From Synechococcales cyanobacterium M55_K2018_004 (GTDB lineage: Bacteria; Cyanobacteriota; Cyanobacteriia; Elainellales; Elainellaceae), in contig DVEB01000183.1 of the NCBI GenBank assembly GCA_015295905.1, forward strand, positions 1 to 48,872: a stretch of 48,872 nucleotides of DNA, written 5' to 3'. Positions within the stretch are counted from its first letter, which is position 1. Every line of letters starts with the position of its first letter. The position numbers and the translations under genes are program-made. The notes beneath the pieces are model-generated. The model searched no databases and was not told where the DNA came from. It saw only the letters and a program-made list of their open reading frames with translations. Below are positions 38,075-48,872 of the stretch, one piece after another.

Positions 38075-38202
38075 TTGACGTGAATTCGGGATAAGCTGAA
38101 ACCCTTGCTTTTCCGTGCGCGACGCGCACGGAAAAGCAAGGGTTTTGGGCACCGCACCCGGCGCGGTGCCCAAAACTCTTCGATGTTCCGGAATCCACAT
38201 TA
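38075..38202 (-). repeat. Family 1 element, near full length, reversed
   Basis: Starts TTGACGTGAATTCGGG directly after the protease stop codon. Hairpin ii stem is TTGCTTTTCCGTGCGCG, perfectly mirrored around ACG. Hairpin i has lost one G on one arm and one C on the other (TTTTGGGCACC with GGTGCCCAAAA). The far end GGAATCCACATTA looks like a second right end. Confidence 0.82.
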
Positions 38203-38499: not shown

Positions 38500-38625
38500 T
38501 AACGTCGGTTCTGGTTCAGCGGGTTTTGGGGCGCCGCGCCGAGTGCGGTGCCCCAAAACCTTCGATGTTCCGTACGCGACGCCCACGGAACATCAAGGGT
38601 TTCAGCGTACCCTGAATTCACGTTA
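38500..38625 (+). repeat. Family 1 element, full length (126 bp)
   Basis: Complete: TAACGTCGGTTCTGGTTCAG, hairpin i with GGGGCGCCGC and GCGGTGCCCC, hairpin ii (GATGTTCCGT with ACGGAACATC), and CCTGAATTCACGTTA. It lies 20 bases before the cobalamin riboswitch region. Confidence 0.88.
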
Positions 38626-38644
38626 AGATAGAACGTTAATTAAA

Positions 38645-38882
38645 CTCCAGGTTGTTTGGGGGACCAGTCCAAACACAGCAGCTCAAATTTCTGGGCTGTC
38701 GAGGGAAAGTCCGGTGAGAATCCGGCGCTGTGCCGCAACTGTGATGCAGTTTCAAGCGGGTTTGCGATCGCGCCACTGTCCGTTAAGGTCAAAGCGATTG
38801 GCAAAACGTTCCAAGCTAGCTGAGTCAGGATGCCTGCCTGGGGTGTTGTTTGTTCAATGCCTGCGCTGCACAGGCGGGAGAC
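38645..38882 (+). promoter_or_regulatory. Cobalamin (B12) riboswitch
   Basis: The conserved core of the cobalamin riboswitch is present in order: GGGAAAGTCCGGTGAGAATC (38703-38722) continuing CCGGCGCTG, then CCGCAACTGTGATG (38733-38746), the B12 box GCCACTG (38772-38778), and AGTCAGGATGCCTGCC (38823-38838). A hairpin GCCTG/CAGGC (38859-38875) follows, as expected for the P13 kissing arm, directly beside the ribosome site GGGAG (38876-38880). This layout suggests control of translation: ligand binding would hide the ribosome site. The exact 5' limit is approximate. Confidence 0.92.
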
Positions 38883-38888
38883 TGAATC

Positions 38889-39596
38889 TTGCAAAGTATT
38901 GAGGTGTTGCGTCCATCCCAACCGATGGACTGTATTGGTGTTGTGATTGCCTCGCGCTGGCTCACCCCCACTATTAAGTCAATTCGCCTAGAACTCGATC
39001 GCTCTGACTTCTGCTTCTTGCCAGGACAATCCGTCTGGCCCAAATTTGAACGGAACGGCAAAACATTTTCCAAAATTTATTCGATCGCTTCTTCACCGTC
39101 GCGTTGCCCAGAAATTGAGCTGTGTGTGTCGCGGGTGGGCTGGAGTTCAGCCTTTATCCAGGATTTGGCGGTAGGAGAAACCATTGCAATGCGGGGGCCT
39201 TACGGCCTGATGACGCTGAAGCAACTGCCCCATCGTCCTCGCATTTACATTGCCGAAGGATCGGGGATTGCGCCGTTGAAAAGCCACATCGACTGGCTGC
39301 GGGAAGCTGGTTTTCGTCAGTCGCTCTGGTTGGTACAATCCAATCCTGAAACGCCGGATGCGTTGCCCTACTGGGAGGAATGGCGATCGCTCTCACAACG
39401 CTGGCCAGCCTTCCATTACCTGGAAGCAGTTGGAGTCCTTCCCGAAGTGCTGTTAACCAGACAGGGGTTGAACTTGAGCGAGTTTGAGATTGATATCTGT
39501 GCGGTGGGCGATCGCACACAGCAAATCCAAGACGTTGTGTTGGCGACGAGTGCTAGACTGAGCCAGGTCAGGACGGAGGAATTTTTTGCCTTTTAG
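38889..39596 (+). CDS. FNR-like flavin oxidoreductase under a B12 riboswitch
   Basis: A 235-residue protein of the ferredoxin-NADP reductase fold. FAD part: ITLELD-like ride (KSIRLELDRSDFCFLPGQSV) and KIYSIASSPS for the flavin. NAD(P) part: IYIAEGSGIAPLKSHIDWL and DICAVGDRTQQIQDVV. The C-terminus ends EEFFAF, an aromatic end typical of the fold. The start is TTG at 38889 with GGGAG 8 bases before; an ATG at 38925 would lose 12 residues but lacks a ribosome site. B12-riboswitch control points to a role with cobalamin, for instance reduction of cob(II)alamin before adenosylation or methylation. That role is inference; I know no firm name for it. lepB follows 40 bases on. Confidence 0.82.
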   Translation: MQSIEVLRPSQPMDCIGVVIASRWLTPTIKSIRLELDRSDFCFLPGQSVWPKFERNGKTFSKIYSIASSPSRCPEIELCVSRVGWSSAFIQDLAVGETIAMRGPYGLMTLKQLPHRPRIYIAEGSGIAPLKSHIDWLREAGFRQSLWLVQSNPETPDALPYWEEWRSLSQRWPAFHYLEAVGVLPEVLLTRQGLNLSEFEIDICAVGDRTQQIQDVVLATSARLSQVRTEEFFAF

Positions 39597-39636: not shown

Positions 39637-40275
39637 ATGTCAGAAAAGTCTTCCAAGCCATCCTCAAAACCTGGAGCCAGCAAAGACCAAAGTTCCTGGC
39701 GCGAAAACCTACAAGTGTTGGTGATTGCGCTGGTGCTGGCCTTATTCATTCGGTTCTTCATTGCAGAGCCACGCTACATTCCCTCCGATTCGATGGTGCC
39801 CACGTTGGCAGTGGGCGATCGCCTCGTAATCGAAAAGGTTTCCTATCGATTCCGGCCTCCCAGCCGGGGAGAAATTGTCGTCTTTGACCCACCTGATCGC
39901 TTGCAGGAATTAGGGTTTACCACCGACCAAGCCTTTATCAAACGGGTGATTGGTCAAGCGGGAGACACGATTCAGGTTCGACAAGGACAGGTCGTGTTGA
40001 ACGGACAACCGCTTCAGGAACCCTACATTGCAGAACCGCCCAAGTATGAAATGCCTCAGGTAACGGTTCCTGCGGATGCATTTTTCGTCATGGGAGATAA
40101 CCGCAACAATAGTAATGATTCGCACGTTTGGGGCTTCTTACCCCGGCGCAACATCATTGGTCATGCTGTGTTTCGTTTCTTTCCCTTCGAGCGGTTTGGC
40201 CCGATTGCAAATCCCCTGCCCGAGGCGATCGCCCCTGCCCAGGGAAATCGTCTGCTACAAGCGACCGATGGTTAG
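39637..40275 (+). CDS. lepB: Signal peptidase I
   Basis: A 212-residue type I signal peptidase, removing Sec and Tat signal peptides at the periplasmic or lumenal face. After a Ser/Lys-rich cytosolic head (1-24) comes a membrane anchor (VLVIALVLALFIRFFIAEP), then the nucleophile Ser52 in YIPSDSMVPTL, the general base Lys102 in AFIKRVIGQAGD, and box E GDNRNNSNDSHVWGFLP. Length is normal for cyanobacteria, which usually have two paralogues. The ATG at 39637 is used; an upstream in-frame start at 39586 would overlap the preceding gene. Being 40 bases after the reductase gene, it could share its riboswitch-controlled transcript, though a separate promoter is likely. Confidence 0.95.
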   Translation: MSEKSSKPSSKPGASKDQSSWRENLQVLVIALVLALFIRFFIAEPRYIPSDSMVPTLAVGDRLVIEKVSYRFRPPSRGEIVVFDPPDRLQELGFTTDQAFIKRVIGQAGDTIQVRQGQVVLNGQPLQEPYIAEPPKYEMPQVTVPADAFFVMGDNRNNSNDSHVWGFLPRRNIIGHAVFRFFPFERFGPIANPLPEAIAPAQGNRLLQATDG

Positions 40276-48818: not shown

Positions 48819-48872
48819 AGCGGGCGATGGGACTCGAACCCACGACGTTCAGCTTGGGAAGCTGACATTCTA
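48819..48872 (-). tRNA. tRNA-Gly (anticodon CCC), 5' part beyond the window
   Basis: The minus strand has an anticodon stem TCAGC/GCTGA around the loop TTCCCAA, giving anticodon CCC. The T arm is GTGGGTTCGAGTCCCAT, followed by the acceptor strand CGCCCGC and discriminator T, as in bacterial glycine tRNAs. CCA is not encoded. The D arm and 5' acceptor strand lie past the right edge. Confidence 0.9.

Follow-up and report, generated by a model that had tools for sequence, protein, structure and literature searches.

Why would a cyanobacterium place a small, stand-alone flavin oxidoreductase under the control of a cobalamin riboswitch? The question is raised by a locus of Synechococcales cyanobacterium M55_K2018_004 (contig DVEB01000183.1; "the window" denotes the whole analyzed stretch of 48,872 nucleotides), in which the original prediction recognized a cobalamin riboswitch with all main conserved blocks, ending in a hairpin that abuts a GGGAG ribosome site, ahead of a gene for a protein with a flavin/NAD(P)H oxidoreductase fold, lacking a ferredoxin domain and any usual partner nearby. 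Either a cobalamin-linked reductase or a B12-independent replacement enzyme was proposed. In cyanobacteria, and in the anaerobic pathway generally, there is no agreed reductase for corrinoid cobalt ahead of adenosylation, and CobR is missing from many B12 producers (PMC4083273).

The elements named in the original prediction were all recovered (Table 1). Searching the whole window with cmscan returned an RF00174 (Cobalamin) match of 48.7 bits (E 3e-9; gathering score 31.5 bits) that spans the full model (1-189), and every conserved block of the aptamer was located; only the extent had to be corrected, as the element starts at 38632 and not at 38645. P13, the hairpin of the expression platform, ends directly before GGGAG, which is followed by the start codon after a spacing of 8 nt. 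Computation could hardly give stronger support to the control of this gene by a cobalamin riboswitch.

Table 1. Features of the riboswitch-reductase locus, with positions numbered along the window.
Feature	Position	Strand	Basis
Cobalamin riboswitch aptamer (RF00174)	38632..38855	+	Covariance-model match; conserved blocks located
Aptamer block GGGAAAG	38703..38709		Read in the DNA
Aptamer block CCGGTGAGAATCCGG	38711..38725		Read in the DNA
Aptamer block CTGTGCCGCAACTGT	38728..38742		Read in the DNA
Aptamer block GCCACTG	38772..38778		Read in the DNA
Aptamer block AGTCAGGATGCCTGCC	38823..38838		Read in the DNA
P13 hairpin, expression platform (stem GCCTG/CAGGC, loop CGCTGCA)	38859..38875	+	Outside the Rfam model; orthologue pairing and covariation
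Ribosome-binding site GGGAG, directly abutting P13	38876..38880	+	Read from sequence
Stand-alone FNR-fold flavin oxidoreductase, candidate corrinoid reductase (235 aa, TTG start)	38889..39596	+	PF00970 (3e-7); structure model; orthologue starts
lepB, signal peptidase I (PF10502), possibly co-transcribed neighbour	39637..40275	+	Pfam 1.8e-52

In an alignment of 16 orthologues, 98.8% of the P13 cells form standard pairs. Two pairs are altered in both partners, five sequences having CG for UA and one having UA for CG, and not one of 500 shuffles reached the same share of paired cells or the same covariation score. The loop invariably reads CG[AC]NNCA in the orthologues, and the same hairpin and loop, again adjacent to the start, occur upstream of cbiM and cbiX in the source genome. 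No terminator match was found between P13 and the start codon; the single weak match on the + strand overlaps the B12 box, and terminator counts equal chance. The folding energy of the whole leader is not lower than that of shuffles (z -0.16), which is uninformative either way because this RNA makes tertiary contacts and its variable arm is long. The position of P13 beside the ribosome site, its conserved loop, and the lack of a detected terminator fit translational control through an L5-L13 kissing interaction upon predicted corrinoid binding, a contact described for other cobalamin riboswitches (PMC9600662) and proposed as a mode of translational control for Anabaena (PMC10878165). The leader shares these traits, as well as the aptamer blocks and the B12 box, with translational RF00174 riboswitches such as those of E. 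coli btuB and Anabaena alr4027-btuB2, and differs in its target, an FNR-fold oxidoreductase lying outside the target classes listed in two published accounts (PMC3766115, PMC10878165). Further upstream, the gap between ctpA and the riboswitch is bordered by two similar inverted-repeat-rich stretches (38100-38200 and 38520-38620; types TTTTGGGCACCGCG... and CGTGCGCGACGCGCACGG) that resemble dispersed palindromic repeats.

TTG is taken as the true start of the reductase gene, since the orthologues align from exactly that codon, theirs reading ATG-CAA-AGT. FAD_binding_6 (PF00970) is the sole Pfam match of the encoded protein, Pfam finds no ferredoxin domain in it, and it reaches no NCBIfam equivalog cut-off. 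The FAD-binding barrel recurs in 24 of 25 relatives; the NAD(P)-binding domain passes the Pfam threshold in 13 of the 25 but not in the window protein, whose structural match extends over the whole length. AlphaFold models the protein with confidence (pLDDT 91.6, pTM 0.90), and the closest solved folds are NqrF, cytochrome b5 reductase, sulfhydrogenase gamma, T4moF, flavohemoglobin, and plant-type FNR (TM-scores of ~0.7-0.85 by query length), along with BenC. As modelled, the protein is a complete two-domain FNR module without an Fe-S or FMN domain. It has the two-domain FAD/NAD(P)H fold of BenC, NqrF, plant-type FNR, and E. coli Fre and Fpr, and resembles Fre also in size (about 233-235 aa) and in having no ferredoxin domain. 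FLPGQ, KIYS, GW-S, RG-YG, EGS-IAP, and a C-terminal ExF are invariant in the alignment of 25 relatives, KIYS differing from the RxY[ST] flavin-binding motif by a conservative Arg to Lys change; BenC has RSYS in place of the family-specific KIYS and GGTGIAP in place of EGSGIAP. Nothing in the sequence or fold names a corrinoid site or an electron acceptor.

As originally noted, no usual partner lies nearby: the gene has no oxygenase or hydrogenase partner in its vicinity, no partner oxygenase or monooxygenase was recognized beside it in the relatives examined, and no B12 gene adjoins it. lepB, whose ATG lies 40 nt downstream, may share a transcript with the reductase gene, although no part in the B12 function is proposed for it; its adjacency is kept in most orthologue loci, riboswitch present or not, and lepB and a helix-hairpin-helix (HHH) gene are the only near-constant neighbours across these loci. 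At the far end of the window, a partial tRNA on the - strand (48819-48872) is cut by the contig end.

The link between riboswitch and gene extends beyond this genome. Eleven close relatives, all cyanobacterial, were found in public genome contigs, and 30 of 390 genomes of the class carry a relative, one per genome. In 29 of these the upstream region could be assessed (in the remaining one a contig end truncates the gene), and 17 have a cobalamin-riboswitch match about 30 nt before the start. Two of the 17 matches fall short of the gathering score, at 27.1 and 31.1 bits, and one has RF01482 as its best model. Since genomes typically hold just 1-5 cobalamin elements, a chance adjacency is excluded. 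The riboswitch is kept in many orthologues, and in others none is detectable: one genome (G282) has the motifs and P13 upstream, yet no model match, and none was found before the gene in 10-11 relatives (G131, G159, G309, G018, G020, and all of the Gloeobacteraceae). The Gloeobacteraceae homologues, devoid of the riboswitch, are distant (about 42-49% identity). On the protein tree, several branches of which are poorly settled, the riboswitch label requires about four changes, so the link was either gained repeatedly or gained once and lost several times. In Leptolyngbya ES-bin-22 (L004, upstream of 2533), the aptamer is undetectable and a P13-like hairpin (ATGTCTGCGACGCAGGCAAAG) still precedes the start codon, a pattern suggestive of a recent loss of the riboswitch.

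The source genome (5.0 Mb, 99.98% complete) contains three cobalamin elements, preceding a putative cbiM-cbiN-cbiQ type cobalt transporter and a putative cbiX, both assigned by us on reading their sequences, and the reductase gene. At least one element was present in 78 of 80 cyanobacterial genomes, and the ORFs downstream of about 130 elements were clustered; recognizable clusters comprise CbiX, CbiM/N/Q, HupE/UreJ-type transporters, CobW, BtuB-type receptors, MetE, and a CobG-like protein. Pfam confirmed MetE, DUF1636, and the CobG-like protein's sulfite-reductase-like domains, the other clusters being assigned by eye. All recognizable targets in the 80 genomes belong to cobalt/B12 uptake, corrin synthesis, or MetE, a B12-independent isozyme. 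A published survey gives the same functional classes, and the word "reductase" is absent from its main text (PMC3766115); no earlier description of an FNR-fold cobalamin riboswitch target was found in the open-access literature searched. Two families without a Pfam match also recur downstream of cobalamin riboswitches: one of ~150 aa (c6; L051:1121 region, L067, L101, L113, L122), which recurs across numerous cyanobacteria, often with a desaturase-like gene next to it downstream, and is a second candidate new member of the B12 regulon, and one of ~400 aa, a secreted/membrane protein (c8; L111:184 region, L054, L076, L106).

BtuR-type matches occur in all 80 genomes, the source genome included, so that co-occurrence with BtuR, to which the original prediction had pointed, does not discriminate. 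Nearly all sampled cyanobacteria possess, beside canonical BtuR, a tandem two-domain BtuR/CobA-like protein of ~400 aa (L195 1533-2732 in the source genome, L197 486-1637 in G047, L198 733-1923 in G083). MetH is present in 77 of the 80 genomes, among them the source genome, and MetE in nine, none of them a carrier of the reductase gene. Substitution for MetE was rejected, since carriers lack MetE but so do most non-carriers. For a B12-independent replacement enzyme, the other half of the original proposal, no positive evidence emerged: the source genome has the B12-dependent MetH and lacks MetE, and no B12 enzyme is known to us for which an FNR module would be a substitute. CbiJ occurs in 74 of 80 genomes, including the source genome and most carriers, and replacement of CbiJ was rejected on this ground; a BluB partner supplying FMNH2 was rejected because BluB reaches the cut-off in 0 of 80 genomes, and a PduO partner because PduO is essentially absent from them (one fragment and one sub-threshold match). 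A link to AdoCbl-dependent NrdJ is not explanatory, as NrdJ_Z matches among carriers are confined to Gloeobacteraceae. The source genome has no match to long-chain flavodoxin, which is absent from 18/30 carriers vs 18/50 non-carriers (counted by hand, fragments scored as present); with p 0.06 and kinship not corrected for, this is a weak trend, and strict flavodoxin replacement was set aside.

Taken together, the regulon, the redox fold, the pathway gap, and the published reduction of BtuR-bound cobalamin lead us to propose, with a probability of roughly 45%, that the protein uses NAD(P)H to reduce corrinoid cobalt, is produced under low B12, and serves BtuR and/or MetH. When adenosyl(pseudo)cobalamin, the predicted ligand, is scarce, the ribosome site beside P13 would be free and the protein would be made; with corrinoid bound, L5-L13 kissing would lock P13 against GGGAG and switch translation off. 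NAD(P)H would donate electrons that reach the corrinoid cobalt by way of FAD, taking it from Co(III) to Co(II) and, on a partner protein, from Co(II) to Co(I), and the reduced corrinoid would be adenosylated by BtuR and/or used in MetH reactivation. Both a flavodoxin/reductase pair and free reduced flavin are able to reduce cobalamin bound to BtuR (PMC4083273, PMC2982820), which means that a generic FNR module could be enough. For cob(II)yrinate reduction in Trichodesmium, KEGG assigns flavodoxin, and another gene is also listed (PMC5816740); in the source genome this step is left without its usual carrier because long-chain flavodoxin is missing. Of the cobalamin-linked reductase originally envisaged, the riboswitch-controlled FNR fold, the conserved link, the B12/cobalt co-targets, and the presence of BtuR have stood, while BtuR co-occurrence does not discriminate; cob(II)alamin as the substrate is plausible but unproven. 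Against a cobalt reductase speak the absence of an adjoining B12 gene, the lepB and HHH neighbours, and the relatives devoid of the riboswitch. With the gene in 30/390 genomes and BtuR and MetH in nearly all, most cyanobacteria must perform the step another way.

Comparison with characterized systems places the protein apart from each. It would share with CobR the NAD(P)H- and flavin-driven reduction of corrinoid cobalt before adenosylation, whereas CobR resembles the short-chain flavin reductases PheA2/TftC (PMC4083273), to which the FNR fold is unrelated. PduS is an NADH-dependent flavoprotein likewise proposed to reduce cobalamin for an adenosyltransferase; it has two 4Fe-4S clusters and FMN and is located in the pdu operon (PMC2982820), whereas the 235-aa protein has no 4Fe-4S or large FMN domain by Pfam and no pdu context. 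The fold also rejects identity with BluB, and an MTRR-type diflavin methionine synthase reductase is rejected by the lack of a flavodoxin-like FMN domain beside the FNR module. Closer in design is the FldA/Fpr chain of enterobacteria, in which an FNR-fold NADPH reductase feeds electrons to CobA/BtuR and MetH; that chain, however, needs flavodoxin, the long-chain form of which was not found in the source genome.

The protein might instead be a methionine synthase reductase, which would reduce inactive cob(II)alamin on MetH and whose level the riboswitch would raise when B12 is short, keeping what MetH is left in its active state. As no carrier has MetE and nearly all have MetH, the carriers depend on MetH, and in E. 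coli MetH is reactivated by Fpr, of related fold, with flavodoxin. Two Gloeobacteraceae, G047 (complete) and G083 (95%), lack CbiD and CbiJ, and their BtuR-type matches score like the tandem BtuR-like protein only, not canonical BtuR, yet both keep the homologue and MetH. If the function is shared, this pattern places it downstream of corrin synthesis, where MetH is no worse a fit than BtuR; the pattern could equally reflect a role outside B12 metabolism. The Gloeobacteraceae homologues, however, are the distant ones without a riboswitch, the protein is not of the diflavin (FMN plus FAD) type, and the distribution is left unexplained, most non-carriers also having MetH without MetE; we regard a function restricted to MetH as unlikely.

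A role further upstream, in cobalt (or iron) reduction during metal uptake or chelation or in a redox step of corrin-ring synthesis, would suit the co-regulated genes of the source genome, those for cobalt uptake and the cobalt chelatase CbiX, and small FNR-type flavin reductases are able to reduce metal complexes. Such a role is nevertheless quite improbable, given that cobalt normally enters as Co(II) with no need of reduction, that the source genome has CbiJ, known as the reductase in corrin ring synthesis, and that homologues persist in the two genomes without CbiD and CbiJ. The substrate may also lie outside B12 metabolism, as for a general flavin/ferredoxin reductase or an enzyme compensating for a failing B12-dependent step, the riboswitch simply coupling it to B12 status. 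The relatives without a riboswitch, the conserved linkage to lepB instead of B12 genes, the restricted distribution, and the occurrence of RF00174 before the c6 and c8 genes in the phylum all favour this explanation, which we consider rather unlikely in view of the recognizable targets in the 80 genomes, all B12/cobalt related or a B12-independent isozyme, the like composition of regulons in the published survey (PMC3766115), and the absence of a recognized partner oxygenase or monooxygenase alongside the gene in the relatives examined.

Reduction of corrinoid cobalt for BtuR and/or MetH is the reading that we prefer, and, more tentatively, the relatives may form a new family of dedicated corrinoid cobalt reductases, with a minimal FNR fold unrelated to CobR and under riboswitch control, that carry out the Co(II)-to-Co(I) step in some cyanobacteria. 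The conserved riboswitch singles out one small soluble protein for a step of this kind, which makes the proposal directly testable. If it is true, a redox enzyme would join the known classes of cobalamin riboswitch targets, given in the published survey as synthesis, uptake, cobalt transport, and B12-independent isozymes (PMC3766115).
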